Source: Bacteroidota bacterium
Lineage (GTDB): Bacteria; Bacteroidota; Bacteroidia; CAIKAF01
Length of the DNA: 41,773 nt
Reading direction: 5' to 3'
Assembly (NCBI GenBank): GCA_016866335.1
Contig: VGMT01000017.1
Location: forward strand, 1 to 41,773
Made by a program: the position numbers and the translations under genes. Of this stretch, positions 5,650 through 37,337 are shown piece after piece (within the stretch, counting starts at the first letter, position 1; each line of letters starts with the position of its first letter). Below the pieces are notes generated by a model, which was given only the letters and a program-made list of their open reading frames with translations, was not told the DNA's origin and made no database searches.

Positions 5650-5792
5650 GCGGCAGGGATTGACGAGGCTACCCCGCAAGGGTGCCGAAGCCTGGCCCGC
5701 TAGGTGCGGAGGCGAGGTTAGGAGCCCCCGCAAACCAGCTGGGCCAGACTTTCGGCAACCGCGGAGTAGCCCGGAAAGCCCGGCTGCCGCCC
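5650..5792 (+). repeat. structured GC-rich intergenic element, copy 1
   Basis: One of four related elements of about 140 nt. Outer helix: GCGGCAG (5650-5656) with CTGCCGC (5784-5790). Inner helix: GCTAC and CCGC with GCGG and GTAGC. Long arm: GCCGAA (5684-5689) with TTCGGC (5751-5756) and CTGGCCC (5692-5698) with GGGCCAG (5741-5747). Tip: GCGG, A, GGC, ten-base loop GAGGTTAGGA, GCC, C, CCGC. The 3' side holds a short GAAAGCC hairpin. It lies between convergent genes. No ORF in it looks real. Whether it acts as RNA or DNA is unknown. Confidence 0.8.
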
Positions 5793-5895
5793 AAATTAAA
5801 AAATCACAAAAACCGGGTTTAAAAAGGTCCCAAAAGGGCAAACACCTGGGTATGGTCCTACAAATCTTACATGCCTAAAGGCCGATACAGCCGCA

Positions 5896-7530
5896 TCAAT
5901 GCTGTACCATTAAGGTCTGCGAGAATTGACGGCCACCGCCGCGGCAGTGCACCACGTAGCCCCCGTTCGACCAATCGCCGGTGTGAATGTCCATGCTGTA
6001 CACAGGCGGAGCGAATTCGTGCATGCGCTCGTACACCTTGCGGCCCTGCATGCTGTAAATGCTAATTTGATACCAACCCGCTTCGTGGATGGGAACGCGC
6101 AAGGTGGTTTTGTGGCTGCATGGATTGGGCGACAAACTCATTGCCGCCTGCTTTATGTTGTCTATGCCCACCGCAGCACACTCCACGAATGGTATGCCCA
6201 CTCCTACCCAATCGCTGAAGCCTACGGTTTGCACCAGCGAAGGCGAAGCCCCAAACCAGTCTTGCACCACCGTTGCCATAATTTGCCGGTAATCAATGCC
6301 CAAAGGTACGTTGCCGCCCTGAAGCGCACTTAAATTCGGATTGGTTCCGAATACGTCTTTATTCACACAGGGACCAAAGGCCAGCAAAGGCTGGGCGTTG
6401 CCATGGTCGGTTCCAAAGGAACCGTTCGATGGCACCCGGCGACCGAATTCCGACATGGTTAAAGTCAGTACTTTTTGGTCCAATCCTAAATTCTGCAAAT
6501 CATCGTAAAAGGCCTTTACCCCTTCGCTGATGTGGTACATTAGGGCGGCGTGGTGGCCCATGGTGGTGTCGAACTCCTCAACCTGATTGGCATGGGTATC
6601 AAAGCCCCCGATGCGGCATAAGAAAATTCGGGTTTTGCAGCCACCGCTCAGCAAGCGAGCTATGATTTTAAGCTGTCCGGCAAGGGGATTGTTTAAGGAA
6701 CCTTGGGGGGCCAAATAGGGATATTGGGTTGGATAAGTTACATTGGAATTGGAACCGGCCATGAACACCGAGCGCAGGCGGCCGGCATAGGCATTGGATT
6801 CGGCTTCAATTTGCATGATGTACTCCAGCTCATCGCCAGCATGCGTGTCGGGCAGGCTTGTAGGAGCCGATCCACCCACCGAATTGATAAGGTTGTAAAA
6901 CCCGATGGGGTCTGAAATGCTCAACCCAACAGGTATTCCGTTGTCGCGGTGAAAAGCCAAAGAGACGCCGGTACCAATTTCAATGGCAAGTGGGTCTTCC
7001 ATTTGGGGGTTTGGATAAGCATCGGGGTAATTGGGGTATTCGTGGTCCAAATACCGGCCCATCCAGCCCGATGAAAAATAGTCGTTGTAGCTGCCACCCA
7101 TAAACCACACATCCCGGCTGCGAAAGTGGGAACCGTTGGCGTAGGGATACGATACGTTTTGAATAACTGCCGCTCGGCCTTGCTCGTACATTTGACGCAA
7201 GCCGTCCATGTCGGGGTGCAAACCCAACTGCCGGTTTGAGGGCAAGGAGGGATCAATGGGAATAATGGAACGTACCCCTGTTTCAGGCAGGGCCAAATTG
7301 GGTCGGTGGCTGTAGTACATTGGATACTGGTCGCGCGGAACCAGCATATTCATACCGTCGTTTCCGCCGTGCAGCTGAATAAAAATCAATACCCTGTCGT
7401 TGCTGCTGTTGGCGGCAGCTTGTTGAAAAATGCCCTGAGGCGACAAGGCCCGAACAGGAACCCCGCTCAACATAAAGGTAGCACCCGCTCCGGCAACGCC
7501 GGTGTTTTTGATGAAGGATCTCCGGTTCAT
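5896..7530 (-). CDS. DUF1501 family protein with Tat-type signal and T9SS C-terminal domain
   Basis: A secreted DUF1501 (sulfatase-like fold) protein of 544 residues. The N-terminus NRRSFIKNTG followed by a hydrophobic run looks like a twin-arginine signal. Family marks include LIFIQLHGGNDGMN near residue 50, IGGFDTHANQ near 310 and LTMSEFGRRVPSNGSFGTDHG near 355. The last 80 residues, from SLSPNP through IYSMQGRKVY to QTLMVQH, match a type A T9SS sorting domain, so the mature protein should go to the cell surface. It starts 2 nt after the DUF1800 stop. These two families are commonly found as a pair; the biochemical role is unknown. Confidence 0.85.
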   Translation of the reverse strand: MNRRSFIKNTGVAGAGATFMLSGVPVRALSPQGIFQQAAANSSNDRVLIFIQLHGGNDGMNMLVPRDQYPMYYSHRPNLALPETGVRSIIPIDPSLPSNRQLGLHPDMDGLRQMYEQGRAAVIQNVSYPYANGSHFRSRDVWFMGGSYNDYFSSGWMGRYLDHEYPNYPDAYPNPQMEDPLAIEIGTGVSLAFHRDNGIPVGLSISDPIGFYNLINSVGGSAPTSLPDTHAGDELEYIMQIEAESNAYAGRLRSVFMAGSNSNVTYPTQYPYLAPQGSLNNPLAGQLKIIARLLSGGCKTRIFLCRIGGFDTHANQVEEFDTTMGHHAALMYHISEGVKAFYDDLQNLGLDQKVLTLTMSEFGRRVPSNGSFGTDHGNAQPLLAFGPCVNKDVFGTNPNLSALQGGNVPLGIDYRQIMATVVQDWFGASPSLVQTVGFSDWVGVGIPFVECAAVGIDNIKQAAMSLSPNPCSHKTTLRVPIHEAGWYQISIYSMQGRKVYERMHEFAPPVYSMDIHTGDWSNGGYVVHCRGGGRQFSQTLMVQH

Positions 7531-7532
7531 GG

Positions 7533-10407: not shown

Positions 10408-10415
10408 TACCTTTG
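10408..10415 (+). promoter_or_regulatory. -7 box of the TerC gene
   Basis: TACCTTTG is an exact TAnnTTTG match 15 nt before the ATG at 10431, giving a predicted leader of only about 12 nt. It also shows that an in-frame TTG at 10413 is part of the promoter and not the start codon. No clear -33 TTG is visible. Confidence 0.65.
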
Positions 10416-10430
10416 CACAAATTTGACCTA

Positions 10431-11435
10431 ATGCTTTACATTCAAGCGGCGCAAGATTCTCAGGGTTGGTTGTACGGAATTTTTGCGGTCTTGATTTTGG
10501 CTATGCTCTTCATCGACCTGGGCCTTTTCAATCGCAAAGCCCATAGCATTTCCTTGGCCGAAGCAGGAATTTGGACATTGGTTTGGATTGGATTAGCCAT
10601 GGCCTTTTCTGGCTTAATTTACCTTTGGACCCGCGAGACCCATGGCCTTGAAAAATGGACCCAATTTCAAACGGCCTATTGGATAGAGAAGGCCTTGTCT
10701 ATGGACAATCTGTTTGTTTTTATGCTCATTTTCAACCACTTCAAGGTTGAGGATCGGCTTCAACATAAGGTTCTGTTTTGGGGCGTCATTGGTGCTTTGG
10801 CCATGCGGGCCCTGTTTATTTTTGCTGGGGTTGAATTGGTTCGGATCTCGTACATCGAAATACCTTTGCCTTGGACCCAAAATTCCAGCACTAACACCCT
10901 TGAAATGAATATTTTGCTGCTGCTCTTCGGCTTGTTTTTGTGCCTGGCGGGGCTCAATTCCCTTCGAAGCAGCCCGAACCAGAACCAAGAATTTGCAGGA
11001 AAAAAATTAATTGACCGCCTGTCTCGCCGCCTTCCGATTGGGGGCGACATTCAGTCGGGACGTTTTTTTCTGCATCAAGGAAAGTGGCTGGCTACGCCTC
11101 TATTTTTGGTTTTGCTCGCGGTAGAATTCACCGATCTGCTGTTCGCCGTCGATTCTGTTCCGGCGATTTTCTCGGTGGCCCCGAACGACCCTTTTATTTT
11201 GTACACCTCCAACATTTTCGCCATTCTGGGCCTTCGTTCCCTGTATTTCGTTCTGCAGGGCTTTTCAAACCTGTTCAGCCATCTAAAAAAAGGGTTGGGC
11301 TTCATTTTGGTTTTCATTGGGCTTAAAATGCTGCTTGCCCCGATTTTTCATATTCCAGCAGGCCATTCCTTGCTCATTTTGGCGGGCATTTTACTGCTTT
11401 CCATCTTGGTTTCGGTCTTAAAAAAAGGGAATTGA
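10431..11435 (+). CDS. TerC/Alx family integral membrane protein
   Basis: A polytopic membrane protein of 334 residues with about eight or nine hydrophobic segments. TerC-family acidic motifs sit within the membrane: AMLFIDLGLFNRKAH near 23, EKALSMDNLFVFMLIF near 85 and EFTDLLFAVDSVPAIF near 230. Relatives are tied to tellurite resistance and, for Alx/MeeY-type members, to manganese export; the substrate here cannot be told from sequence. It is a single gene with its own promoter, and the structured element copy 2 follows 8 nt after the stop. Confidence 0.85.
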   Translation: MLYIQAAQDSQGWLYGIFAVLILAMLFIDLGLFNRKAHSISLAEAGIWTLVWIGLAMAFSGLIYLWTRETHGLEKWTQFQTAYWIEKALSMDNLFVFMLIFNHFKVEDRLQHKVLFWGVIGALAMRALFIFAGVELVRISYIEIPLPWTQNSSTNTLEMNILLLLFGLFLCLAGLNSLRSSPNQNQEFAGKKLIDRLSRRLPIGGDIQSGRFFLHQGKWLATPLFLVLLAVEFTDLLFAVDSVPAIFSVAPNDPFILYTSNIFAILGLRSLYFVLQGFSNLFSHLKKGLGFILVFIGLKMLLAPIFHIPAGHSLLILAGILLLSILVSVLKKGN

Positions 11436-11442
11436 TTTTTGG

Positions 11443-11589
11443 GGGCGGGTAATCCGGCTTTCGCGGGTAGTCCGCAGCCATTGGCCTGCGGTACAGCCGC
11501 CTTGCGCGGGCTCCCAAGGTCGCCTGCGCGGCTGGCGTACCACCGGGCCACTGGCTTTGCGGGCTACACCTGCTCAATCTGGCCCGCGG
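11443..11589 (-). repeat. structured GC-rich intergenic element, copy 2
   Basis: Read on the minus strand this is the second element. Outer helix: GCGGG with CCCGC (plus-strand 11583-11587 and 11445-11449). Inner helix: GTAG and CCGC with GCGG and CTAC. Long arm: AGCCAGTGGCC opposite GGCCAATGGCT (plus-strand 11546-11556 and 11476-11486) with one mismatch, extended by GTGGTAC opposite GTACCGC. Tip: GCGC, A, GGC, loop GACCTTGGGA, GCC, C, GCGC, so the tip stem differs from copies 1 and 4 yet still pairs. It fills the gap between the convergent terC and eda genes. Confidence 0.8.
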
Positions 11590-11621
11590 CCGCTCAAACC
11601 CGATACCTTGTTGTAGGGTGT

Positions 11622-12182
11622 TTACTTCAACATCCAAGAACCCCCAACCGCCACAACATTGGGCAACGAAAGGTAATCTTGTTTGGTGGCTTCTTCGATT
11701 CCACCGGTTGGCAAAAACCGCACCGACTGAAAAACCGAAGCATACGCACTCAGGGCCGCAGCCCCTCCAAACAAATGAGCTGGGAAAAATTTTAGCAGGC
11801 CCAAGCCACGCTCTTGCGACTGCATAATTTCGCTGGGGCTAACTGCTCCGGGCAAATAAGGCAGCCCTGTATTTTTCATAGCCAACACCAAAGCCTCGGT
11901 TTGGCCAGGACTCACCAAAAATTCAGCACCGGCTTTGGCTGCCGCCTCGGCTTGAGCAGGTTGGCAAACTGTACCTGCTCCCACACAAAGTTGAGCCCCA
12001 TAGTGGGTCTTTACGTAGCGAATCAAATCCAACGCCCTCTGGGTACGCAGGGTAATTTCCATGGAAGCATAGCCCTGTTCCAGCAGCCGCTTGCAAGCGG
12101 CATCTGCTTGTTCTTCGGTGTTCAATACCGCAACGGGAACAATAGAAAAAGGCTGTAAAAGGGTTAAAATTCCGTTTTGCAT
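11622..12182 (-). CDS. eda: 2-keto-3-deoxy-6-phosphogluconate aldolase (short C-terminus)
   Basis: Cleaves KDPG to pyruvate and glyceraldehyde-3-phosphate, the last Entner-Doudoroff step. The (beta/alpha)8 marks are MEITLRTQRA near 41 (catalytic glutamate), VGAGTV near 67, LLKFFPAHLFGG near 130 with the Schiff-base lysine, and LPTGGI near 156. At 186 residues it ends at GGSWMLK, about 27 residues earlier than the E. coli enzyme, losing the final helix. The sequence after the stop does not continue the protein in any obvious way and runs into element copy 2 within about 30 nt. It lies 5 nt behind edd. Confidence 0.9.
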   Translation of the reverse strand: MQNGILTLLQPFSIVPVAVLNTEEQADAACKRLLEQGYASMEITLRTQRALDLIRYVKTHYGAQLCVGAGTVCQPAQAEAAAKAGAEFLVSPGQTEALVLAMKNTGLPYLPGAVSPSEIMQSQERGLGLLKFFPAHLFGGAAALSAYASVFQSVRFLPTGGIEEATKQDYLSLPNVVAVGGSWMLK

Positions 12183-19596: not shown

Positions 19597-19620
19597 AGCT
19601 AACTGGAACTTAAGAATTAA

Positions 19621-23540: not shown

Positions 23541-23550
23541 AGGTGGGGTA

Positions 23551-23997: not shown

Positions 23998-23999
23998 AA

Positions 24000-24185: not shown

Positions 24186-24188
24186 GGC

Positions 24189-24707: not shown

Positions 24708-24714
24708 AACGCAA

Positions 24715-25068
24715 TTAGAATTTTAAACCACCCTCTCGAGCACCTTCAGCAAGTGCCTTAACTCGACCATGATACAAATACCCACTTCGATCAAACTGAA
24801 CATCGGCGATACCTAAGGCGGCGGCTCGCTCAGCGATGGCTTTGCCAACAACTTGGGCTTGTGCCACTTTGGTAGCTGCTTTATTGAAACCCTTTTCAGC
24901 TGATGAAGCAGAAGCGATGGTTGCACCTTTTAAATCATCGACCAATTGGGCGTAAATCTCTTTATTGCTTCTGTAAACGGAGAGTCTTGGCCGTGTTGCA
25001 GAACCCACCACCGTCTTACGAATGCGGTAGTGAATTTTTTTCCTTCGTATTTGTTTATCCTGTGCCAT
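24715..25068 (-). CDS. rplR: 50S ribosomal protein L18
   Basis: 117 residues. The 5S rRNA-binding protein: [31 protein letters not shown], and the C-terminal [26 protein letters not shown], which is close to invariant. It lies 21 nt after rplF. Confidence 0.97.
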
Positions 25069-25089
25069 AATCGAATTATCGTTGATGCA

Positions 25090-25647
25090 TTATTTCTTAC
25101 CAGCAGACTTACCGGCTTTCCGACGAACTGCCTCGCCTTGGAAGCGGATACCTTTCCCTTTGTATGGTTCAGGTTTGCGGAAGCTTCTGATTTTGGCTGC
25201 CACCTGGCCGATGAGTTGTTTATCAAAAGATTTAAGGGTAACCAATGGGGCTTTACCTTTATCGGTTTTGGTTTCTACCTTAACCTCGTTGGGCAATTCA
25301 AAAACAATGTTGTGTGAATAACCTACGGAGATATCGAGCAGCTGTCCTCGGGCTTCTGCGCGGTAACCTACCCCAACCAATTCCATGTTGATTTCGTAGC
25401 CTTCTGAAACTCCTTTAACCATATTGAAAATCAGAGCCCGGTAAAGGCCATGCAAAGCACGGTGCCGAGGCTGATCGGTAGGGCGGTTAACAGAAAGAAT
25501 ACCATCGGTTACATCGATGGTAATATCTGGATGAACGGGCTGCTGCATTTCGCCCAAAGGACCTTTAACAACAACCAGGTTGCCCTTGGCAACCTCGACG
25601 TTCACTTTGGCCGGAATTTGAATAGGAGCTTTACCTACGCGTGACAT
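25090..25647 (-). CDS. rplF: 50S ribosomal protein L6
   Basis: 185 residues. SRVGKAPIQIPAKVNV begins the first of two related domains; GVGYRAEARGQLLDISVGYSH and the C-terminal KPEPYKGKGIRFQGE are diagnostic. L6 sits near the factor-binding site at the base of the stalk. It lies 11 nt after rpsH. Confidence 0.97.
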   Translation of the reverse strand: MSRVGKAPIQIPAKVNVEVAKGNLVVVKGPLGEMQQPVHPDITIDVTDGILSVNRPTDQPRHRALHGLYRALIFNMVKGVSEGYEINMELVGVGYRAEARGQLLDISVGYSHNIVFELPNEVKVETKTDKGKAPLVTLKSFDKQLIGQVAAKIRSFRKPEPYKGKGIRFQGEAVRRKAGKSAGKK

Positions 25648-25658
25648 AAATCTATTCT

Positions 25659-26051
25659 TTAGTAAATCTTACACAAAACCTCTCCGCCCAAATTCTGGGT
25701 ACGGGCATCTTTATCGGTCATCAACCCTTTAGAGGTAGAAACAATTGCTATGCCTAACCCATTTAAAACCCTGGGCAATTCATCGGAACCAGAATACTGA
25801 CGTAAACCGGGGCGAGAAACACGAGAAAGGTGTTTGATGGCCGAGGCCTTAGTTACGGGATGGTATTTCAGGGCAATTTTAATGACGCCCTGAGGAGCCA
25901 CATCCTCAAATTTATAGGAAAGGATATACCCTTGATTGAACAAAATTTCGGTAATGCCTTTCTTCACATTTGAAGCAGGGACTTCAACTACACGGTGACG
26001 GGCTTTAATGCCGTTGCGCACCCGCGTTAAAAAATCTGCAATTGGATCCAT
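25659..26051 (-). CDS. rpsH: 30S ribosomal protein S8
   Basis: 130 residues starting MDPIADFLTRVRNGIKARH. The C-terminal GLGIAIVSTSKGLMTDKDAR is the rRNA helix 21 contact. In E. coli S8 represses the spc operon; no matching site was recognised in the leader before rpsQ or near rplE. It lies 4 nt after rpsN. Confidence 0.97.
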   Translation of the reverse strand: MDPIADFLTRVRNGIKARHRVVEVPASNVKKGITEILFNQGYILSYKFEDVAPQGVIKIALKYHPVTKASAIKHLSRVSRPGLRQYSGSDELPRVLNGLGIAIVSTSKGLMTDKDARTQNLGGEVLCKIY

Positions 26052-26055
26052 GTTC

Positions 26056-26325
26056 TTACCAGCTAGCTTTAGTTACACCGGGAATTTTGCCTTCGTTGGC
26101 CATTTTGCGGAACAAAACCCGAGAAATTCCGAATTGACGCATAAAGCCACGTGGGCGACCGGTCAATTGACAGCGGTTGTGCAAGCGCACTTTCGAGGAG
26201 TTTCTAGGCAACAAAGCCAAACCTTGATAGTCGCCAGCCTCTTTCAGGGCTTCGCGCTTAGCAGCAAATTTAGCCGCCATCTTTTCACGTTTGCGCTCAC
26301 GCGCTTTCATTGATTCCTTAGCCAT
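26056..26325 (-). CDS. rpsN: 30S ribosomal protein S14 (zinc-free long form)
   Basis: 89 residues: [36 protein letters not shown] and [21 protein letters not shown]. Only one cysteine remains, so this is the long form without the CxxC zinc motifs. Together with L36 it means neither zinc-dependent form is encoded in this cluster. It lies 6 nt after rplE. Confidence 0.96.
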
Positions 26326-26331
26326 AGAAGC

Positions 26332-26895
26332 TTAATTCTGGGAATGTTTAATATTATCGAAAGGAAGACCAAAAGCCAACAACAACGCGTAGGCTTCTTT
26401 ATCGGTAGGAGCGGTTGTCACGAAAGTGATGTCCATTCCATTAATTTTAGATACTTTATCGATGTCGATTTCAGGAAAAATCAACTGCTCAGTAATACCT
26501 AGGTTGTAATTTCCACGGCCATCAAAACCTTTGGAAGAAACGCCTTTAAAATCGCGAACCCGAGGCAAAGAGATGGCTACAAACCGATCCAAAAATTCAT
26601 ACATCCGAACGCCGCGAAGGGTAACTTTGGTACCAATGGGCATGCCCTTACGCAATTTAAAGTTAGAAATATCCTTTTTGGATTTGGTTGAAATAGCTTT
26701 TTGACCGGAAATCAAAGACAATTCTTGAACGGCAACATCTACCATACGCTTATCGCCTACGGCAGCACCCAAACCTTGACTGATAACAATTTTAGTCAGG
26801 CGAGGAACCTGCATAATGGATTTATACCCTTGCTCCTTGAAAAGAGCGGGAACAATTTCCTCTTTAAACTTGGTTAAAAGACGTGGAGTACTCAT
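26332..26895 (-). CDS. rplE: 50S ribosomal protein L5
   Basis: 187 residues of the 5S rRNA-binding protein L5, which also touches P-site t[41 protein letters not shown]-like [19 protein letters not shown] and [19 protein letters not shown] are diagnostic. Its start overlaps the rplX stop by one base (TAATG). Confidence 0.97.
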
Positions 26896-27215
26896 TACTT
26901 AATTTCTTCTGCGGTTTTCTTGGCGTAACGAACTAATTTATCGCCAGATTCATTCAATTTGCGACCAACTCGGGTCACCACATCGCCCACTTTTAATTTC
27001 ACATTCGAAATGTGAAGGGGAGCTTCTTTTTCAATAATCTTACCTTCGGGTTGCTGCGGACTAGGCTTGGTATGGCGTTTTACCATATTTACACCTTCCA
27101 CAACAACACGGTTGGTTTCACGATTGATAGACTTAATAGCACCAGAGGCGCCCTTATGATTGCCGGATATGACAACCACGGTGTCTCCGCTTTTTAATTT
27201 AAGTTTGGTTTGCAT
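26895..27215 (-). CDS. rplX: 50S ribosomal protein L24
   Basis: 106 residues with a KOW motif: [20 protein letters not shown] at about 6-25, then [21 protein letters not shown]24 starts assembly of the 50S subunit. It overlaps rplE by one base and follows rplN by 12 nt. Confidence 0.96.
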
Positions 27216-27227
27216 AGGGCCAAAGAA

Positions 27228-27596
27228 TTAAAGTACCTCAGGGGCTAATGATACAATTTTCATAAACTGCTTTTCCCGAAGCTCACGAGCCACCGGACCA
27301 AAAATACGGGTACCCCGCATTTCACCCTGGGCATTCAATAAAACAACAGCGTTGTCATCAAAACGAATGTAGGAACCGTCCATACGTTTCACTTCCTTCT
27401 TGGTACGAACCACCACCGCTTTTGTTACTGCTCCCTTTTTAACGTTACCCGAAGGCAAAGCATCTTTAATAGAAACAACAATGGTATCGCCAATAGAAGC
27501 ATAGCGCCTCTTTGTTCCACCTAAAACCCGAATACAAAGAACCTCTTTGGCTCCACTGTTGTCGGCAACTTTCAATCTTGATTCCTGCTGTATCAT
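27228..27596 (-). CDS. rplN: 50S ribosomal protein L14
   Basis: 122 residues, the invariant length. [20 protein letters not shown] starts the protein; [20 protein letters not shown] and [20 protein letters not shown] are diagnostic. It forms inter-subunit bridges with 16S rRNA and lies 7 nt after rpsQ. Confidence 0.98.
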
Positions 27597-27603
27597 ACTT
27601 CAA

Positions 27604-27861
27604 TTACTTAGCTCGTTCTACAATTTGAATCAGACGCCAGTTTTTTGTTTTGCTTAACGGACGCGTTTCCATAATAGAAACCGTATCCCCGATATTGCAT
27701 TCGTTGCGCTCATCGTGCGCATGAAACTTGGAAGTTAGTTTAACAAACTTTCCATATTTCGGGTGTTTCACCCGACGTTCAACAGAAACGATGATGGATT
27801 TCTCCATTTTGTTGCTTACAACAACTCCTGTTTTTTCTTTTCTGGTTTTCCGTTCAATCAT
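27604..27861 (-). CDS. rpsQ: 30S ribosomal protein S17
   Basis: 85 residues, an OB-fold primary 16S-binding protein. [20 protein letters not shown] and [20 protein letters not shown], then [20 protein letters not shown], are diagnostic. It is the first gene after the 159-nt gap that holds a terminator and a promoter, so it probably heads its own transcription unit running to rplQ. Confidence 0.97.
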
Positions 27862-27886
27862 AACCGGCGGTCGATTATTGTTTTAT

Positions 27887-27939
27887 TCAGCCCCAAATTT
27901 AGGGATTGCAAAGGTGCGGTTTTATTTTTAAAATTCCAA
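27887..27939 (-). promoter_or_regulatory. internal ribosomal promoter-leader module before rpsQ
   Basis: Minus strand: TTGGA with TTG at 27937-27939, 20 nt, then CACCTTTG at 27909-27916, continuing GCAATCCC. The predicted start is near 27905. The first transcribed bases hold CCCTAAATTTGGGG, able to form a small CCC/GGG hairpin. The leader to the rpsQ ATG is about 44 nt. The rpsJ and rpsL modules are almost the same. Confidence 0.75.
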
Positions 27940-27961
27940 GTTGGGCTTCAATTTTTTATTT

Positions 27962-27996
27962 ACAAAAAAGAACCGCCAGCAGAATCTGCGGGCGGT
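27962..27996 (-). terminator. intrinsic terminator after rpmC
   Basis: Minus-strand hairpin ACCGCC, mismatch, GCAG, loop ATT, CTGC, mismatch, GGCGGT (27972-27996): ten base pairs around one mismatch. It is followed by TTCTTTTTTG. It starts 24 nt after the rpmC stop, inside the ribosomal cluster, and 23 nt before the -33 box of the rpsQ promoter. Confidence 0.85.
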
Positions 27997-28020
27997 ACTC
28001 GTTTTAAAGTCGCCTTTTAA

Positions 28021-28212
28021 TTATTTAAGTTGACGTTGTCGTTGTTCGGTTTGCAACCGAGCAACCAGTTTCCGCTGAACTTCAATGGATTTAGGATTAT
28101 CTAAATTCACCACTGCGTGGTTCATCTTTAACTTGAGCAGCTGAGTTTTCTCGATGCTCACTTTGTCGTTAAGCTCTGTATCAGAAAGAGCGCGAATATC
28201 TATGTTTTTCAT
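28021..28212 (-). CDS. rpmC: 50S ribosomal protein L29
   Basis: 63 residues from the ATG at 28212: MKNIDIRALSDTELNDKV, then QLLKLKMNHAVVNLDNPKSI, two antiparallel helices beside the exit tunnel. A TTG two codons upstream could start translation but the ATG is preferred. It lies 9 nt after rplP and is followed by a terminator, so it seems to end the S10 transcription unit. Confidence 0.95.
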   Translation of the reverse strand: MKNIDIRALSDTELNDKVSIEKTQLLKLKMNHAVVNLDNPKSIEVQRKLVARLQTEQRQRQLK

Positions 28213-28221
28213 GATCAAAAA

Positions 28222-28641
28222 TTAGGCCTCGTAATCGTTACGGGTAATGAACTTGGTTTTAACCGGAAGCTTTTGGGCCGCTAAACGAAGGGCCTCTTGC
28301 GCAACTTCCAAAGGTACACCATCAATTTCGAAAAGAATATGTCCTGGCTTCACAACGGCAGCCCAATATTCAGGGTTACCCTTACCTTTACCCATACGCA
28401 CTTCAGCAGGCTTTTTGGTGATAGGCTTGTCGGGAAAAACCCGGATCCAAACCTGGCCTTCCCGTTTCATGTAACGGTTTAAGGCTACACGGGCAGCTTC
28501 AATCTGACGCGAGGTCATCCAAACCGTGTCAAGCGATTTAAGTCCAAAAGACCCAAAGGCTATGGTATGCCCGCGCTGGGCAATCCCCTTCATTCTGCCC
28601 TTCTGGACCTTCCTGTATTTGGTACGTTTAGGTTGTAACAT
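28222..28641 (-). CDS. rplP: 50S ribosomal protein L16
   Basis: 139 residues. [39 protein letters not shown]-like [20 protein letters not shown] and [19 protein letters not shown] are diagnostic. L16 organises the A-site region of the peptidyl-transferase centre. It lies 25 nt after rpsC. Confidence 0.98.
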
Positions 28642-28666
28642 AACTTAGTTCTCTATTCTGTATCAC

Positions 28667-29386
28667 TTAAATGCGTTTCCGCTTAGAGCGAGGAGCCGAT
28701 ACTCCGGTAGGAGATTTTGGACCCTGTTTTTGAACACCAATATTGGGGGACAAATCGCGACGGCCATATACTTCGCCCAACATAATCCAAACTTTTACAC
28801 CGATACGGCCATAGGTTGTGTGGGCTTCGGCATGTGCATAATCAATGTCAGCACGAAACGTATGCAATGGAATGCGGCCTTTTTTGTACGAATCGCCGCG
28901 GGCAATCTCTACACCACCCAAACGACCGGCTACCGCGATTTTAATTCCTTCAGCCTGCATGCTCATGGTCGAAGCGATGGCCATTTTCAAAGCACGGCGG
29001 TAGTTTACACGACCTTCCAATTGCTTAGCAATGTTCTCGGCAACCAAACGGGCATCCAACTCAGGACGCTTGATTTCAGCAATGTTTATACCAACCTCTT
29101 TCTTGGTTAATTTTTTCAATTCTTCTTTCAGACGCTCTACTTCCTGACCTTGCTTACCAATGATGATTCCTGGGCGGGCAGTATGAATGGTAACCGTTAC
29201 CATTTTTAACGTACGCTCAATAACAATCTTCGAAATGCTTGCACTAGACAGGCGTGCCCGGATGTAGTTGCGGATTTTGTCGTCTTCAACTAATTTTTCG
29301 GTGTACTTTTTTCCACCGTACCAGTTGGATTCCCATCCGCGGATGTACCCTAACCTATTGCCGATTGGATTGGTCTTTTGTCCCAT
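28667..29386 (-). CDS. rpsC: 30S ribosomal protein S3
   Basis: 239 residues. [20 protein letters not shown] opens the protein; the KH domain ([20 protein letters not shown], near 73-92) and the C-terminal [15 protein letters not shown] are diagnostic. S3 lines the mRNA entry tunnel. It lies 5 nt after rplV. Confidence 0.98.
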
Positions 29387-29391
29387 AATCG

Positions 29392-29814
29392 TTATGCGTT
29401 ATCTGAATTAGTTGAAGTTTCGGTAGCCTTAGGAGCGACGGCAATGGTAACGTGATTGCTTCGTTTGCGAACCCTGTGGGCACGACCCTGGGGAGCAGGC
29501 TGAACGCGTTTAAGCGTTTTGGATTGGTCAACAAACACCTCGCTTACAAACAAGGCAGCTTCATCGGCGCGCAATCCGCTTTTCTGCTCAAAATTTGAGA
29601 TGGCCGACTTAAGCAACTTTGACATAGGCAAAGCTGCAGCTTTAGATGTGAATTGAAGCACGTCCAAGGCTTTGTTGGCATCCATACCACGAATCAAGTC
29701 TGCTACCAACCTCATTTTCCGAGGCGAGGTAGGATAATCCATCAAGCGAGCAAAGTAGCGCGTCTTGTTGGCTTGTTTTCTGGCATCTGCTGCCGTTTTT
29801 TTCCGATTTCCCAT
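29392..29814 (-). CDS. rplV: 50S ribosomal protein L22
   Basis: 140 residues. [20 protein letters not shown] near 27-46 and the tunnel-lining hairpin [20 protein letters not shown] near 104 identify L22. It has about 20 residues beyond the usual length at each end; the tail ([12 protein letters not shown]) is polar and low in complexity. No resistance-type change in the hairpin is evident. It lies 18 nt after rpsS. Confidence 0.97.
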
Positions 29815-29832
29815 AAGGCAATTTCTCTAACG

Positions 29833-30114
29833 TTATTTCTTCCCTTTGTCTTTGCGTTGACCGGCGTGGCCTCTCCAAGTGCGGGTTGGGCTAAATTCAC
29901 CCAATTTATGACCCACCATGTTTTCGGTTACAAAAACAGGAATATGTTTGTTTCCGTTGTGTACTGCAATGGTATGCCCAACAAAATCTGGAAGAATCAT
30001 TGACCTTCTGGACCAAGTTTTAATGACCGATTTTTTGCCAGAATTGTTCATTTCTACGGCCCGCTTTTCGAGCTTAAAATCAACAAATGGTCCTTTTTTT
30101 AATGAACGTGCCAT
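29833..30114 (-). CDS. rpsS: 30S ribosomal protein S19
   Basis: 93 residues: [40 protein letters not shown] and [21 protein letters not shown]19 binds 16S rRNA in the head with S13. It lies 5 nt after rplB. Confidence 0.98.
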
Positions 30115-30119
30115 GTGAA

Positions 30120-30941
30120 TTACTTACGTTTTTCAAGAATGTATTTAGAAGACTGTTTTTTCTTGCTGCGGGTCTTATACCCTTTGGCAATTAAACCTTT
30201 GCGGCTACGTGGGTGTCCACCGCTTGCGCGGCCTTCGCCGCCACCCATTGGGTGATCGACAGGGTTCATAGCCACGCCTCGAACGCGAGGGCGGCGACCC
30301 ATCCAACGCTTACGTCCTGCTTTGCCATGTATGTTCAGACTGTGGTCAGCATTGGAAACCGAACCAATGACAGCCTGGCAGGTAATAAGAATCATACGCT
30401 GTTCGCCACTGGGCATTTTAAGTACGGCATATTTTCCGTCGCGGGCAGACAACTGAGCACTGGCTCCGGCACTGCGGCAAAGAGCGGCTCCGCGGCCTGG
30501 CTGCATCTCAATATTGTGAATGGTGGTTCCCAATGGAATTTCAGACAGAGGTAAAGCATTACCAACGTCGGGGTTGGAACCAGGACCTGAATACACGGTT
30601 TTTCCTACTTCAAGGCCATTTGGAGCAATGATGTAGCGCTTTTCGCCATCGGCATAGGCAATCAAGGCAATGCGCGCAGTACGGTTCGGATCGTATTCAA
30701 TGGTTTTTACAACACCAGGAATACCGGCCTTATTGCGTTTGAAATCAATAATGCGGTATTTCTGTTTGTGGCCTCCGCCCACTTGGCGAATGGTCATTTT
30801 TCCGCTGCCATTCCTTCCACCCGATTTGTGGTTTGGTTTGGTTAACGATTTCTCCGGTGTATTGGTCGTGATGGTAGCAAAATCGCTAATCACTTTGTAC
30901 CGAGTACCGGGCGTAATTGGATTAAATTTTCTTAAGCCCAT
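30120..30941 (-). CDS. rplB: 50S ribosomal protein L2
   Basis: 273 residues. [17 protein letters not shown] opens the protein; [17 protein letters not shown], the SH3-like central part and [20 protein letters not shown] with the conserved histidine near the peptidyl-transferase centre are all present. It lies 3 nt after rplW. Confidence 0.98.
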
Positions 30942-30944
30942 AAC

Positions 30945-31238
30945 TTAGATATTTGCAAAAAGATCAATGTTCTGACCTTCTTTCAATGTAACAACAGCTT
31001 TTTTATAGGCGTTCTTACGGCCTTTCAAAACATTCTTCTTCGTGTAGCGAACAACCTTATCGCCAATGTAATTCATGGTGTGCACACGAGAAACCTCAAC
31101 ACCATACAAAGATTGAATGGCTAAGCGGATTTGAGCTTTATCGGCTTTGGGGTTTACCAAAAATCCATACCGATTGAATTTCTCTCCGGCGGCGGTTATC
31201 TTCTCCGTGACCAGGGGTTTGATTATAATGCTGCTCAT
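30945..31238 (-). CDS. rplW: 50S ribosomal protein L23
   Basis: 97 residues: IIKPLVTEKITA, YGFLVNPKADKAQIRLAIQS and VRYTKKNVLKGRKNAYKKAV. L23 sits at the tunnel exit and docks trigger factor and SRP. It lies 2 nt after rplD. Confidence 0.97.
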   Translation of the reverse strand: MSSIIIKPLVTEKITAAGEKFNRYGFLVNPKADKAQIRLAIQSLYGVEVSRVHTMNYIGDKVVRYTKKNVLKGRKNAYKKAVVTLKEGQNIDLFANI

Positions 31239-31240
31239 AA

Positions 31241-31870
31241 TTACGCGCTTAAAAGTTTTTCCAACACCGGAATGCTTTGCTCTTCAACAAAAACACGCTC
31301 GGCATCCATAATTTCGTAGGTGTTCAACTCAGCAGCACTGATTACATTGGCACCAGGCAGGTTCCTTGCACTCAAAAAGGCGTTGCTGTGTGTTTCTTGT
31401 ACTACCACCAAAACCTTTTTGTCGTTGGCAGAAAACGAAGTCAAAAACGTCAAGAATTCTTTGGTTTTTGGCATTTCGAAATTCATACCTTCAACGATAG
31501 TAAAGGCGTTGTTTTGGGTTTTGTAAGCTAAGGCAGAACGACGGGCCAAACGCTTAAGTTTTTTATTCAATTTGAATGAATAATCCCTTGGCTCTGGACC
31601 GAAAATACGACCACCGCCACGGTACAAGGGGTTTTTGATGCTGCCCTTACGAGAGCCGCCCGTTCCTTTCTGTTTGTGCAATTTGCGGGTACTGCCATGC
31701 ACTTCGTTGCGCTGCTTGGTTTTATGGGTGCCCTGACGGGCATTGGCCATAAACTGCTTTACATCTAAATAAATAGCATGGTCGTTGGGTTCGCAACCAA
31801 AAACCGCATCGTCAAGGTTAACCTTGCGGCCGGTGTCTTTACCGTTGAGAGAATAAACTGAGATTTCCAT
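31241..31870 (-). CDS. rplD: 50S ribosomal protein L4
   Basis: 209 residues. The tunnel loop NARQGTHKTKQRNEVHGSTR with KLHKQKGTGGSRKGSIKNPL and RGGGRIFGPEPRDYSFKLNK near 43-105 identifies L4. In E. coli L4 represses the S10 operon from its leader; no such leader structure was recognised before rpsJ. It lies 8 nt after rplC. Confidence 0.98.
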   Translation of the reverse strand: MEISVYSLNGKDTGRKVNLDDAVFGCEPNDHAIYLDVKQFMANARQGTHKTKQRNEVHGSTRKLHKQKGTGGSRKGSIKNPLYRGGGRIFGPEPRDYSFKLNKKLKRLARRSALAYKTQNNAFTIVEGMNFEMPKTKEFLTFLTSFSANDKKVLVVVQETHSNAFLSARNLPGANVISAAELNTYEIMDAERVFVEEQSIPVLEKLLSA

Positions 31871-31878
31871 TTCGTAGA

Positions 31879-32496
31879 TTATTTTTCAATGGTTACAATA
31901 GCCCCTTTGCTACCGGGGCAGCAACCGCTTACAACCAACAAATTCTTTTCAGGGATAACTTGAAGCACACGAAGGTTAAGGGCTTTAACGCGAGCATTGC
32001 CAGTTTGACCAGCCATGCGCATACCTTTAAATACCCGGCTTGGGAACGATGAGGCACCCAATGAACCTGGGTGGCGTTGACGGTTGTGCTGACCGTGGGT
32101 ACGGCCACCTACACCACCAAAACCATGGCGCTTAACAACCCCCTGAAACCCTTTACCTTTTGATTTGGCAACCACGTCAACGAAGTCTCCAATCTCAAAA
32201 ACGTTCACATCAATTTTCTCACCCAAACTCACCTCGCTGGTAAAATACCGAAACTCCCGAATAACGGAAGCCGATTCTTTACCTACTTTCTTAAGGTGAC
32301 CCTGTTGAGCCTGATTCATGTTTTTAACCTTGCGTTCGCCAAAAGCCAATTGAACGGCGGTATAACCATCGCGCTCAACTGTTTTAACCTGGCTTACAAC
32401 ACAAGGACCAGCTTCAATCACCGTACAAGCAATGGCTTTGCCATTCTCGTCGAAGATGCTGGTCATCCCAATTTTCTTTCCAATGATTCCGGACAT
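31879..32496 (-). CDS. rplC: 50S ribosomal protein L3
   Basis: 205 residues. [20 protein letters not shown] starts the protein; [18 protein letters not shown] and [20 protein letters not shown] with [15 protein letters not shown] form the extension into the peptidyl-transferase region. It follows rpsJ after 70 nt that hold a hairpin. Confidence 0.98.
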
Positions 32497-32514
32497 ATGA
32501 TTCTTGATTTAAGC

Positions 32515-32547
32515 GCTGCAGCGGAACGCCGAATCCGTTCTTGCAGC
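32515..32547 (-). other. hairpin between rpsJ and rplC
   Basis: Minus strand GCTGCA, A, GAACG, loop GATTCGG, CGTTC, CGC, TGCAGC: 11 base pairs in two segments. It ends 19 nt before the rplC ATG and lacks a T-run, so it is not an intrinsic terminator. It could tune rplC translation or protect mRNA. It sits in a 70-nt gap, large for this cluster. Confidence 0.6.
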
Positions 32548-32566
32548 TCATCGATTAAAATTAAAA

Positions 32567-32872
32567 CTATACCTTGATCTCCACCTCTACACCACTGGGC
32601 AATTCCAGCTTCATCAAGGCATCAATGGTTTTTGAAGATGTACTGTAAATGTCCATCAAACGCTTATAAGAACAAAGCTGAAACTGCTCCCGGCTCTTCT
32701 TGTTTACGTGAGGTGAACGAAGCACTGTGTAAATACGCTTGTGGGTGGGTAAAGGAATAGGACCATTCACCACAGCACCGGTACTTTTAACCGTCTTTAC
32801 TATTTTCTCGGCCGACTTGTCAACCAAGTTGTAGTCGTACGATTTAAGCTTGATGCGAATTTTTTGACTCAT
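32567..32872 (-). CDS. rpsJ: 30S ribosomal protein S10
   Basis: 101 residues: [40 protein letters not shown] and [17 protein letters not shown] are diagnostic. S10 is also NusE, a partner of NusB and NusG in antitermination. It is the first gene of the S10 unit and has its own promoter module 42-72 nt upstream. Confidence 0.98.
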
Positions 32873-32897
32873 AACTCTATTCCTTGTTATTCTTAGC

Positions 32898-32944
32898 CCT
32901 GTTTTTGGGATTGCAAATGTGCAAACTTTTGTTTATAATTCCAA
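32898..32944 (-). promoter_or_regulatory. ribosomal promoter-leader module before rpsJ
   Basis: Minus strand: TTGGA with TTG at 32942-32944, 20 nt, then CACATTTG at 32914-32921, continuing GCAATCCC. The predicted start is near 32910 and the leader about 38 nt. CCCAAAAACAGGG follows, a three-pair CCC/GGG hairpin with a 7-nt loop. There is no tuf gene between fusA and rpsJ. Confidence 0.75.
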
Positions 32945-32976
32945 TAGCAGGGGATTAAATAAATGGGTTTAACGCA

Positions 32977-35106
32977 TTAATTCTTTTTTCCTTTCACTTT
33001 GGCCACCACATCTTCTTGGATGTTTCGAGGTGCTGGGTCGTAATGGCTGAATTCCATCGTTGAACTTGCACGTCCCGAGGTAATGGTACGCAAAGAGGTA
33101 ACGTAGCCAAACATTTCGCTTAATGGAACTTTGGCCTTAACTACTTTGGCGTTGCCTCGGCTATCCATTCCATCGATTTGACCACGACGGCGGTTCAAAT
33201 CGCCTACCACATCACCCATATTTTCTTCGGGTGTTACCACCTCTACTTTCATAATGGGCTCAAGTAAAATTGGCTTTGCATTGGGCATGGCTTCTCTGTA
33301 GGCCATTTTGGCGCACAATTCAAACGAAAGCGAATCGGAGTCAACCGCGTGGTACGAACCGTCCAACAAGGTAACCCGCAATGAAGTTACAGGGAAACCG
33401 GCCAATACTCCGTTTTGCATTGAGGCTTCAAAACCTTTTTGAACCGAAGGCACATATTCACGAGGAATGTTGCCGCCTTTTACTTCGTCCACAAACTCCA
33501 AACCGGGTTGTCCGTCTGGACGTGGCTCCAATGAAAACTGAATGTCGGCGAATTTACCGCGGCCACCGGTTTGTTTTTTGTACACCTCGCGGTGAGAAAC
33601 CTTACCGGTAATGGCTTCTTTGTAAGCTACCTGGGGAGCCCCCTGGTTGCATTCTACTTTAAATTCCCGCTTTAGACGGTCCAAAATAATTTCCAAGTGA
33701 AGCTCTCCCATACCCTCAATGATGGTTTGGTTGCTGTCTTCGTCGGTATGTACTTTAAAGGTTGGATCTTCTTCGGCCAATTTTGCCAAGGCGGTACCCA
33801 AACGATCAACATCCGCTTGCGTTTTAGGCTCAATGGCTACTCCGATAACTGGATCAGGGAAGCTCATGGCTTCTAAAGTGATTGGCTTTTTCTCGTCGCA
33901 CAAGGTGTCGCCGGTACGAATATCTTTGAAACCTACTCCAGCACCGATGTCGCCAGCCTCGATAAAATCAATCGGGTTTTGCTTGTTCGAGTGCATTTGG
34001 AAGATGCGTGAAATACGCTCTTTGTTTCCAGTCCGTACATTCATTACATAACTGCCTGCATCTAAGCGACCCGAATACATACGGAAGAAACACAAACGAC
34101 CAACAAATGGGTCGGTAGCAATTTTAAATGCCAAAGCAGCCATAGGCTCAGAGGCATCGGGCTTGCGCAATTCCTCTTCGTCGGTGTCGGGATTGATACC
34201 TGTTACTGCCTCAATATCCATAGGAGAAGGAAGGTAACGAATCACGCCATCGAGCATGGTTTGTACGCCCTTGTTTTTGAAAGCCGAACCGCACATCATG
34301 GGAACGATGTCAATGGCCAAGGTGGCACGGCGAATCGCTGTATGAATTTCTTCTTCGGTAATGGTAGAAGGGTCGTCGAAGAATTTCTCCATCAACCGAT
34401 CGTCGTACTCGGCAACCGTTTCCAACAAATAATTTCTCCAATGCTCTACATCGGCAACCAAATCGGCTGGAATATCTACAATGGCGTACTTGGCTCCCTC
34501 AGAAGCGTCGTCCCAAATAATGCCTTGCTGGGTAATCAAATCGACCACCCCTTTAAATGAATCTTCGGCACCTATTGGAACCTGAAGTGGAACAGGCTTT
34601 GCTCCCAAACGGGCTTTTACCTGCTCAACCACCGAAAAGAAATCGGCACCGGCACGGTCCATTTTATTCACGAAACCAATTCGAGGCACATTGTACTTGT
34701 TCATTTGACGCCAAACAGTCTCAGACTGTGGCTCTACTCCGCCTACAGCGCAGAACAACGCCACCGCGCCATCAAGTACACGCAGGGACCGTTCCACCTC
34801 AACGGTAAAATCAACGTGGCCGGGGGTATCAATAATGTTGATTTGATACTGTTTGGTTTCGCCGGAAATGGCCTGACCTTGTTGGGTTGGAAAATTCCAA
34901 AAACACGTGGTGGCGGCAGAGGTAATGGTTATACCACGCTCTTGCTCCTGAACCATCCAGTCCATGGTAGCTGCACCATCGTGAACCTCACCAATTTTGT
35001 GGGTTTTACCGGTGTAATACAAAATACGCTCAGAGGTCGTTGTTTTACCAGCGTCAATGTGCGCAGAAATACCAATGTTGCGGGTGAATCTTAAATCACG
35101 TGCCAT
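32977..35106 (-). CDS. fusA: translation elongation factor G
   Basis: 709 residues, full length. The GTPase motifs are [20 protein letters not shown] near 10-29, [17 protein letters not shown] near 92, and [11 protein letters not shown] near 146. Domains II to V follow, with [20 protein letters not shown] and [15 protein letters not shown] as typical stretches. It translocates tRNA and mRNA, and with RRF recycles ribosomes. It lies 28 nt after rpsG and is followed by the rpsJ promoter. Confidence 0.98.
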
Positions 35107-36044: not shown

Positions 36045-36096
36045 CTACCCTACATTTAGGGATTGCAAAGGTGCTGTTTATTTTTCAATTATCCAA
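36045..36096 (-). promoter_or_regulatory. ribosomal promoter-leader module before rpsL
   Basis: Minus strand: TTGGA with TTG at 36094-36096, 20 nt, then CACCTTTG at 36066-36073, continuing GCAATCCC. The predicted start is near 36062, with a 41-nt leader. CCCTA, loop AATG, TAGGG forms a 5-bp hairpin at the predicted 5' end. Confidence 0.75.
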
Positions 36097-36151
36097 CACG
36101 GCCTCTGGAATTTTCTGCAAGTTATTGGTTTCATTCCGCACTAAAACAGCC

Positions 36152-36159
36152 TACCTTTG
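36152..36159 (+). promoter_or_regulatory. -7 box of the SDR gene
   Basis: TACCTTTG, an exact TAnnTTTG match 10 nt before the ATG at 36170, so the leader is about 7 nt. TTGG at 36125-36128 is a possible but distant -33 box. The box begins with T, unlike the three ribosomal promoters. Confidence 0.6.
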
Positions 36160-36169
36160 CAATAAAAAT

Positions 36170-36868
36170 ATGCGCATTTTCATTACGGGAGCCACCGCAG
36201 GCATTGGTCAGCATTTGGCACAAAAGGCTATTCTACAGGGACATGATCTGGTTTTTACGGGCAGCAATCCCAGCGGAGTTCAACAGGCAGAGGGGGAATT
36301 TAAAGCACTTTCAAATCAGTCGGTAGCAGGTTTTGTGGTGGACTTTACCGATCCCATTCAAACCGCCCAATTTATTTCAAATTCCTTTACCGAGGCAACC
36401 TTGCCTGATGTGTTGGTTTTTAATGCAGGTCAGTATGCCGAGGGGCCCTTGCATGAGCCCGGACTTGGGCATATTCAACGGCAGCTTAGGTTGCACTTTT
36501 TGCACATCACCGAGTGCCTAGAAGATTGGCTGCCTATTATGAGGGACAGAAAGGCGGGTCATATTATAGGAGTAAATTCGATTTTGGCGCTGGAACCCCG
36601 CCGTTCGGCTCCGGGATATTGCATGTCGAAACAGGCTCTTTTGCAGTATTTTCGAGCGCTTCAGCCGGAATTGCTGCCCTTTGGCATTCGCGTCAGTCAG
36701 GTGCTGCCCTCTTCAACCGCATCCCGTTCATGGCAAGGCAGCGGCATCAGCGAAAGCGATTTGATTGGTACCGACGAACTGTCAAACTGGATAGCGCAAA
36801 TTTGGTCTAGCCCAACAAACACCCTTCCCACCGAGCTGATTCTTCGTCCAATGAGCTCTATGTTTTAA
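36170..36868 (+). CDS. short-chain dehydrogenase/reductase (SDR)
   Basis: A 232-residue classical SDR. MRIFITGATAGIGQHLAQKA carries the TGxxxGIG nucleotide motif, VLVFNAGQYAEGP the NAG motif, VNSILA the catalytic serine and GYCMSKQA the YxxxK pair. A longer frame from 36071 runs through the promoter and is not used. Substrate and cofactor cannot be told from sequence. It is divergent from rpsL and is a single gene with its own terminator. Confidence 0.88.
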   Translation: MRIFITGATAGIGQHLAQKAILQGHDLVFTGSNPSGVQQAEGEFKALSNQSVAGFVVDFTDPIQTAQFISNSFTEATLPDVLVFNAGQYAEGPLHEPGLGHIQRQLRLHFLHITECLEDWLPIMRDRKAGHIIGVNSILALEPRRSAPGYCMSKQALLQYFRALQPELLPFGIRVSQVLPSSTASRSWQGSGISESDLIGTDELSNWIAQIWSSPTNTLPTELILRPMSSMF

Positions 36869-36872
36869 TGTA

Positions 36873-36908
36873 GATTCCGAATCTGCTTTTTAGTTTTTCT
36901 TTTTTTTA
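36873..36908 (+). terminator. intrinsic terminator after the SDR gene
   Basis: AGATT, loop CCG, AATCT (36873-36885) is followed by GC and a long T-rich run to 36908 with a few interruptions. The stem is short. Element copy 3 begins directly after the T-run. Confidence 0.6.
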
Positions 36909-37050
36909 GGGCGGGTTATCGGGCTTTCGCCGGTAGTCCGCCGTTAAAAGCCTTGTGCCCAGCGGCTTTACGCGGGCTCCTAAAGTCGCCTGCGCAGCAC
37001 GCGGGCACGTGGGCTTTTTCCGTACGGGCTACTCTGGCTCAATCCCGCCC
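36909..37050 (-). repeat. structured GC-rich intergenic element, copy 3
   Basis: Read on the minus strand. Outer helix: GGGCGGG with CCCGCCC (plus-strand 37044-37050 and 36909-36915). Inner helix: GTAG and CCGT with GCGG and CTAC. Long arm: AAAAGCC with GGCTTTT (plus-strand 37012-37018 and 36946-36952) and GTGCCC with GGGCAC (37003-37008 and 36955-36960). Tip: GCGC, A, GGC, loop GACTTTAGGA, GCC, C, GCGT, using one G-U pair. GGC-GAAA-GCC lies on the 3' side. Copy 4 follows in the opposite orientation, so the pair forms a large inverted repeat. Confidence 0.8.
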
Positions 37051-37197
37051 GCGGCGGCCTTACACCAAACTTGGCGATAATTAAATCTAATAAGCTAGTC
37101 CCTGCAGATGGCACTACAAAAGCATATAGGATTAAAATGAGCGGACAAATAATGTGGAACTTAAAATGGAAGCACCTAAATGACACAGGCCACCCGC
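37051..37197. other. spacer between inverted elements 3 and 4
   Basis: About 147 nt of ordinary base composition between two oppositely oriented elements. No gene or clear motif is seen. The last 20 nt (ATGACACAGGCC) resemble the sequence before copy 1. Confidence 0.4.
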
Positions 37198-37337
37198 GGG
37201 CGGGATTGAACCGGGTTGCCCGCAAGGCGGTCGGGGCCTGGCCCGCGTGGCGCGGAGGCGACTTTAGGAGCCACCGCAAGCCCGCTGGGCCAGCCCCCGA
37301 CCGACGCGGACAACCGGTGAAAGCCCGGTAACCCGCC
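37198..37337 (+). repeat. structured GC-rich intergenic element, copy 4
   Basis: Outer helix: GGCGGG (37199-37204) with CCCGCC (37332-37337). Inner helix: GGTTG and CCGC with GCGG and CAACC. Long arm: CGGTCGGGG (37228-37236) with CCCCGACCG (37295-37303), one mismatch, and CTGGCCC (37238-37244) with GGGCCAG (37287-37293). Tip: GCGG, A, GGC, loop GACTTTAGGA, GCC, A, CCGC. This is the most stable copy, with a 16-pair arm. It lies 56 nt upstream of the HAD gene. Confidence 0.85.

Follow-up and report, generated by a model that had tools for sequence, protein, structure and literature searches.

The 41,773-nucleotide (nt) contig VGMT01000017.1 of a Bacteroidota bacterium (assembly GCA_016866335.1), referred to here in its full length as the window, carries four copies of an element that forms a dispersed intergenic hairpin family, whose core is common to Flavo-1 (RF01705) and to many families of the class Bacteroidia. 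Across the class this core consists of a closing stem, a helix A with purine-rich internal loops, and a side helix B. As distant relatives of Flavo-1, the window copies represent a new long form of the Flavo-1-type element, in which helix A has been lengthened, the closing stem kept and helix B lost. The dispersed hairpin may well work as folded DNA and not as a trans-acting small RNA (sRNA), a judgement on which confidence is evenly divided and which covers both how the element would act and how it would have spread.

Distribution of the element

The genome to which the window belongs (G000) is that of a freshwater bacterium (2.45 Mb, 62 contigs, 99.09% complete). A BLAST search of this genome with window copy 4 returned matches throughout the best 40 scored of 197 candidates, and a covariance model built from 33 copies (R1, from alignment A2) recognized as full-length matches all 150 candidates scored out of 916, so that at least 150 copies are present. 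The four elements first picked out in an earlier reading made from the letters of the window (the sequence-only reading) are therefore only the window's share of a much larger set. R1 also matched all five further genomes of the genus, strongly in G001, G003 and G004, and the remaining two carry diverged copies (42 and 38, or 56 and 51 under looser limits). Ten of 40 relatives, G000 counted in, are matched by R1; those outside the genus are G013 and G014, which belong to the same family and hold forms of about 150 nt, and, weakly, G017 and G023 of other families, in which the matches are shorter forms having the hairpin base in common.

Relatives of the element extend from the genus and family through the class to two genomes outside it. 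A motif scan over 295 genomes of the class matched 12, the window's genus included, and its backward control gave one match. A second model (R2), made from eight short copies of two other families (alignment A3), gave matches in 60 of 149 class genomes, spread over 39 of 99 genera, the highest number of scored matches in a genome being at least 26. The short copies align as a three-way junction with a closing stem GCGTG/CACGC, a helix A starting GGGAUnG, and the side helix B. A third model (R3), which comprises 31 class-wide copies and no sequence from the window's genus, matched 31 of 198 genomes of the phylum (G000 among them), two of which lie outside the class. Within the window, R3 finds only the four elements at E-values up to 1 (E 3.6e-6, 2.7e-5, 0.009 and 0.21); the last two weigh little alone, and it is R1 that assigns those copies to the family. 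In the whole of G000, 75 of 150 scored candidates reach E ≤ 0.01 with R3, which adds further places, some of 80-90 nt; such short forms stand beside the long form at C40:15481-15570, C3:110175-110254, C26:13811-13891 and C42:2210-2291. The Flavo-1-type core motif is also carried by two viral contigs from IMG/VR (L434 and L435; 85.5 and 30.5 bits with R3), and in G230 and G413 six copies begin about 430-620 bases from contig ends.

Conserved fold and covariation

From the 33 copies RNAalifold predicts a single unbranched rod of 50 pairs, and at 27 of these at least one copy shows a double change with pairing kept. The compensatory changes that the sequence-only reading had claimed from four copies thus persist over 33, and covariation does not vanish once more copies are aligned, either here or in the class-wide sets, which exceed their shuffled controls. 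A larger set of 265 copies was composed of the 150 from G000 and 115 of 125 matches from 93 sister-genome loci, the ten matches cut by locus ends being excluded. Over 39 pairs it provides 10309 cells, among which 9642 are Watson-Crick, 122 G-T, 67 A-C and 478 other, part of the last probably being due to misalignment.

The direction of these changes can be followed in 87 independent close pairs of copies, split by identity. The youngest class (≥95% identical, n=34) holds 11 G-T, 11 A-C, 16 other and 6 double changes, and the two older classes combined hold 36 G-T, 16 A-C, 112 other and 80 double changes. Recent single changes thus show no strand preference, and with time A-C is lost or repaired to a greater extent than G-T; this pattern is read here as selection on the folded plus strand, whether as RNA or as single-stranded DNA (ssDNA). 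Copying of one arm from the other by template switching is not favoured as the source of the matched changes, because the closest pairs show 38 single against 6 double changes and the doubles rise with divergence. Conversion between copies may contribute, as suggested by the site shared by copy 51 and L076, where the apical half has been replaced and the base is almost unchanged.

Class-wide, the 31 copies of R3 are paired in 95.9% of the cells of 22 pairs, and 101 cells show double changes with pairing kept, compared with 31.0 in shuffles (none of 500 as high) and 7-17 in slid controls; four of five covariation measures exceed all 500 shuffles. In a second set of 34 other distinct rows, which R3 both located and aligned, the corresponding values are 98 and 21.1, and all five measures lie above the shuffles. 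The selection for the fold proposed earlier is therefore supported within the genus, by the covariation, the 265 copies and the close pairs, as well as by two alignments spanning the class.

Relationship to Flavo-1

Rfam detects no Flavo-1 in the window, either at the gathering threshold (42 bits) or at E ≤ 10, and the microRNA-like and other chance matches obtained for the window and for a single element were dismissed. By the criterion that Rfam itself applies, Flavo-1 does not include the window copies. The earlier statement that the element belongs to no named RNA family is borne out in this respect, yet it fails in another, as intermediate copies connect the element to RF01705. A Flavo-1 search over ten relatives gave nothing up to E 5, and the link emerged only from two later sets of 20 loci. 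In the first, which is class-wide, 14 loci have a Flavo-1 match at the R2 site and on its strand (two over the gathering threshold and 12 under it), and in the other six none appears up to E 1. In the further set, R3 copies coincide with Flavo-1 at gathering in two loci (L460:3123-3209 and L466:3467-3553), both beginning 98 bases after the 5S rRNA in two rRNA operons of a single genome, G204, and 17 others have no Flavo-1 at gathering. R3 itself includes copies above the Flavo-1 threshold (L382, 58.6 bits; L367, 42.7 bits). Since R3 holds such accepted copies, its sole window matches being the four elements, of which two reach significance individually, the sequence and pairing of the helix-A core are shared with Flavo-1 by way of intermediates.

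The Rfam consensus of Flavo-1 aligns to helix A only, and its model excludes the closing stem and side helix B, both of which covary class-wide. The two forms are alike in the helix-A core and its orientation, with GGAUUGnAGCGGAAA.CC pairing to GG.UUGnAGCGGAAAGCC, and in their occurrence in Bacteroidota, where Flavo-1 coincides with the class-wide copies; the window form differs in a helix A roughly twice as long, a GGCGACTTTAGGAGCC tip, and the lack of helix B. No description of the long form was found in a literature search of titles, abstract starts and passages that left subscription journals mostly outside its coverage. Flavo-1 is listed without function in a table of PMC9029176. According to passages of a transcriptome study of Flavobacterium psychrophilum, Flavo-1 matches there show no distinct preference for the sense or the antisense strand of transcribed regions, many fall outside such regions, and their placement yielded no clue, so that expression as RNA finds no clear backing in that species (PMC9723704).

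Gene context, flanks and orientation

Gene contexts in G000 were assigned with a home-made gene caller. No called gene is overlapped by more than 60 bp in 144 of the 150 copies, so the copies do not look like decayed protein-coding mobile DNA, the outcome that would have told against the earlier claim. The gaps that they occupy are convergent in 43 cases, divergent in 19 and tandem in 67, divided into 33 sense and 34 antisense, with 21 copies missing one or both flanking gene calls; the gene 3′ of the element points toward it in 90 of 146 cases. On the 3′ side a flank of about 18 bases is A-rich and G-poor over the 150 copies, and this holds in all four gene contexts. Similarity of the flanks to other repeats is concentrated upstream (81 similar pairs, compared with 7 downstream), in part owing to a neighbouring element on that side. 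A second intergenic repeat was seen upstream of several copies (L172:641-900 and 12 other G000 loci), with 15 BLAST matches of 42-260 nt, two being duplicates.

Neighbouring copies tend to be opposed. Among same-contig pairs of G000 less than 10 kb apart, 46 of 59 are in opposite orientation, as against 116 of 237 beyond 10 kb, and in G001 and G003 together 45 of 64 neighbours are opposed. All six neighbours within 500 bp in G000, G001 and G003 are arranged 5′-to-5′, a count in which shared ancestry is possible. Recombinational loss of direct pairs is one candidate cause of this layout. No replication-strand bias was detected by GC skew for 69 copies (72 R1 matches minus three antisense echoes), the plus-strand mean being 0.007, with 42 of 69 positive (p 0.11).

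Age of the insertion sites

Occupancy was assessed by comparing the flanks of the 150 copies with sister-genome stretches picked irrespective of the element. The stretches of G001 and G003, 800 kb in all, offer 24 comparable sites; BLAST shows 19 of them to be occupied and R1 adds another. An additional 400 kb of G001 offers 19, of which 17 are occupied (BLAST only). Combined, 37 of 43 comparisons are occupied, some elements being compared in both sister genomes. The sites are thus old, and the copies would now be mostly inherited in place within the genus. No clean empty site was secured among the sites compared; that of copy 119 in G001 contains a 5′-truncated copy, and that of copy 137 did not align. 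An earlier set of 36 flank pairs, biased in that the loci had been fetched because they carried the motif, has the element present as a pair in 32 (orientation agreeing in 31) and missing in four. The two versions at each of those 31 shared sites retain folding energies of roughly -72 to -98 kcal/mol, and their 1605 cells include 100 double Watson-Crick changes, 44 G-T, 21 A-C and 98 other.

In the genus g63, one locus followed through 14 species has a BLAST match to the element in seven and none in seven; two of the latter show a short gap and the others a different sequence, the flanks being too diverged for a junction. The same intergenic region (L484, L486, L489 and L496) contains palindromic repeats that vary by species (TTTGTCATTGC..., TTTGTCATTTCGACG...) and that replace or adjoin the Flavo-1-type element, making it a shared landing spot for unrelated repeats.

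Folded DNA or structured RNA

The sequence-only reading had left the choice between a structured RNA and a hairpin-forming mobile repeat, and the evidence now points, without being decisive, toward a dispersed repeat that forms hairpins. In the favoured reading the element would work as DNA, through the fold that its plus strand takes when single-stranded. The plus-strand hairpin could be extruded, or exposed at replication, and then be bound by a host protein, and the copies may have multiplied earlier via a process that leaves no target duplication, before becoming mostly inherited in place in the genus.

A structured noncoding RNA family, that is a Flavo-1-type sRNA or 3′ untranslated region (UTR) element with many copies acting as RNA, is unlikely, though far from negligible. 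The general expectation for structured RNA, covariation beyond chance, is borne out, and it is equally expected of a DNA hairpin. Conservation of the purine-rich internal loops, in the genus as well as the class, speaks for RNA, as does the excess of plus-strand G-T over A-C in the older pairs. G-U is almost absent class-wide, however, at 3 of 679 cells in the 31 copies and 4 of 728 in the 34 rows. Eight tRNAs of the sister-genome stretches, a small control, contain 17 G-T, no A-C and 162 Watson-Crick pairs, so that the wobble share of the element (0.4-1.2% of cells) falls short of tRNA-like tolerance (17 of 179 stem pairs), and the ratio of G-T to A-C in the 265 copies of the genus is under two. 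Upstream of the element, a home-made expectation-maximization (EM) search returned T-rich words above shuffles at all positions and no placed promoter-like motif. It is the few wobbles, the even split of the tandem contexts and the placement of Flavo-1 in F. psychrophilum (in the passages of PMC9723704) that favour a DNA hairpin over RNA.

Several observations weigh against the folded-DNA reading or complicate it. Flavo-1 is classed as sRNA in Rfam and was rated a probable RNA in its first description, in the part seen of PMC2864571. All 87 close pairs together show 47 G-T against 27 A-C, which fits RNA as well as plus-strand ssDNA; the excess belongs to pairs under 95% identity (36 against 16), the closest showing 11 against 11. 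Matched changes keep accruing at shared sites, so that the copies are no plain fossils and their role at each site is left unexplained. No mover was found, Y1 transposase being absent from G000 and not tied to the element (see below). The orientation bias is absent in G002 (11 of 28) and G005 (23 of 44), R2 alone recovers two of the four window copies, and a third gathering-level Flavo-1 match in the further 20 loci (L469:1590-1667) was missed by R3. Of the covariation measures in the 31-copy set, the fifth (further pair types) is unremarkable, at 25 against 22.2 with 63 of 500 shuffles as high, and the two class-wide alignments (A4 and A5) were fitted to models and so lean toward structure.

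A wider proposal, plausible if short of probable, is that Flavo-1 is really a class-wide DNA hairpin with a three-way-junction core, under selection at each site for its ssDNA fold and with close copies opposed in the genus, of which the expanded long form is missed by Rfam.

Route of spread

That the element is REP-like (repetitive extragenic palindromic) and was once mobilised as ssDNA by a Y1 (HUH) transposase that the genome no longer has is improbable. The proposal draws on the hairpin with its conserved mismatches and strand-specific fold, the absence of a target duplication, the A-rich 3′ flank in every gene context, and an R2 match within 1.5 kb of five of 30 Y1 loci in element-bearing genomes. 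Atypical structures with copies elsewhere are also described beside Bacteroidetes genes of Y1 subclass 2.6 in the passages of PMC6006769. At four of the five loci, however, the Y1 gene has its own ACCCC....GGGGT palindromes between gene and element, and by Y motif four of the proteins resemble subclass 1.2, the fifth is stop-interrupted, and none resembles 2.6. Y1 does not co-occur with the element, being present in 28 of 35 element-bearing genomes and in 17 of 20 (out of 89) where R2 found nothing. G000 has no match to PF01797 at 99.09% completeness, with five of 14 control genomes positive, and G001 has no Y1 despite many copies. On account of the genes' own palindromes and the failed co-occurrence, a Y1 partner is retained only as a rival explanation.

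The palindromes form an observation of their own: in L417, L419, L421 and L424 the Y1 genes, three with Y...Q..HH and one stop-shortened, are flanked by repeated ACCCC....GGGGT palindromes, although subclass 1.2 generally lacks typical secondary structures according to PMC6006769. REP sequences and bacterial interspersed mosaic elements (BIMEs) resemble the window family as many dispersed intergenic hairpins in both orientations, and differ in their size, REP hairpins being 21-65 nt (PMC6006769) and the window element 147-149 nt. REP also has a GT[AG]G foot, whereas the window element has no foot at its base and GTAG is paired inside helix A, and the cognate Y1 gene of a REP/REPtron system is lacking in G000.

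A miniature inverted-repeat transposable element (MITE) of a DDE transposase with terminal inverted repeats, suggested by the palindromic, multicopy and intergenic character of the family, is very improbable, in that there is no target duplication (longest shared flank word 3.83 observed and 3.83 permuted over 150 copies; best of many offsets 6 against 0.5, for a 4-mer 18 and 15 bases from the ends), the palindrome contains conserved mismatches, and 37 of 43 site comparisons are occupied. The enterobacterial repetitive intergenic consensus (ERIC), or intergenic repeat unit (IRU), is an imperfect intergenic palindrome of about the window element's size with an unknown mover; it differs in phylum, and the likeness is one of general description alone.

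The four copies in the window

All four look-alike elements of the sequence-only reading were recovered, two per strand, at 147-149 nt by R1, whose boundaries are used here; gene assignments are from Pfam. Copy 1 is full length at 5646-5793 on the plus strand (R1 144 bits; R3 30.2 bits at 5647-5792), flanked by a gene encoding SprB and SUEL-lectin domains (4196-5497, plus) and by a DUF1501 gene (5896-7530, minus). Its A-rich 3′ flank occupies 5794-5812 (plus), as seen in the sequence and the flank profile over 150 copies. Copy 2, full length at 11443-11591 on the minus strand (R1 123.6 bits; R3 14.2 bits, E 0.21), lies between a TerC-family gene (10413-11435, plus), whose stop is seven bases away, and an aldolase gene (11622-12182, minus); a short T run in the sequence at 11436-11440 is the A-rich 3′ flank on its own, minus, strand.

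Copy 3 (36909-37056, minus, full length; R1 124.7 bits; R2 E 1.9e-6; R3 E 3.6e-6) is found downstream of a short-chain dehydrogenase gene (36071-36868, plus) and head-to-head with copy 4, and the T-rich sequence at 36887-36908 constitutes its A-rich 3′ flank on the minus strand. Copy 4 (37192-37338, plus, full length; R1 151.7 bits; R3 19.8 bits, E 0.0092) is about 135 bases from copy 3, with the 5′ ends facing, and is followed by an A-rich 3′ flank at 37339-37358 (plus; sequence and 150-copy profile) and a HAD hydrolase gene (37394-38086, plus). A fifth R1 match, at 37201-37326 on the minus strand (36 bits), reflects copy 4 read on the opposite strand.

Three sequence features described earlier are present, namely the GGGATTGA-type box on the 5′ side, the GGCGAnnTTnGGAGCC tip and, on the 3′ side, the GAAAGCC box. 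Complementarity of the arms also holds, except that the tip GCGC/GCGT of the copy at 36909 contains a G-U wobble. Copies 4 and 1, the two compared with shuffles, have folding z-scores of -6.14 and -6.68, and none of 200 shuffles equals either. On the minus strand, 18604-35106 is a dense gene run that by position is a ribosomal-protein cluster, in which ribosomal protein S11 (20256-20639) and elongation factor G (32977-35106) are the members checked; the R1 search of the window found no copy within it.

Significance

Flavo-1 gains a fuller structure from this family, with a closing stem and a side helix that both covary, and the range of the Flavo-1-type element is widened to 60 of 149 genomes of the class by R2 and, by R3, to two genomes outside it among 31 positives. 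A long form with at least 150 copies in one genome, together with the signs of possible folded-DNA action, makes the label of an orphan RNA experimentally approachable, and the matched changes in its arms make the family well suited to asking which of the two, RNA or a DNA fold, is the active form of Flavo-1.

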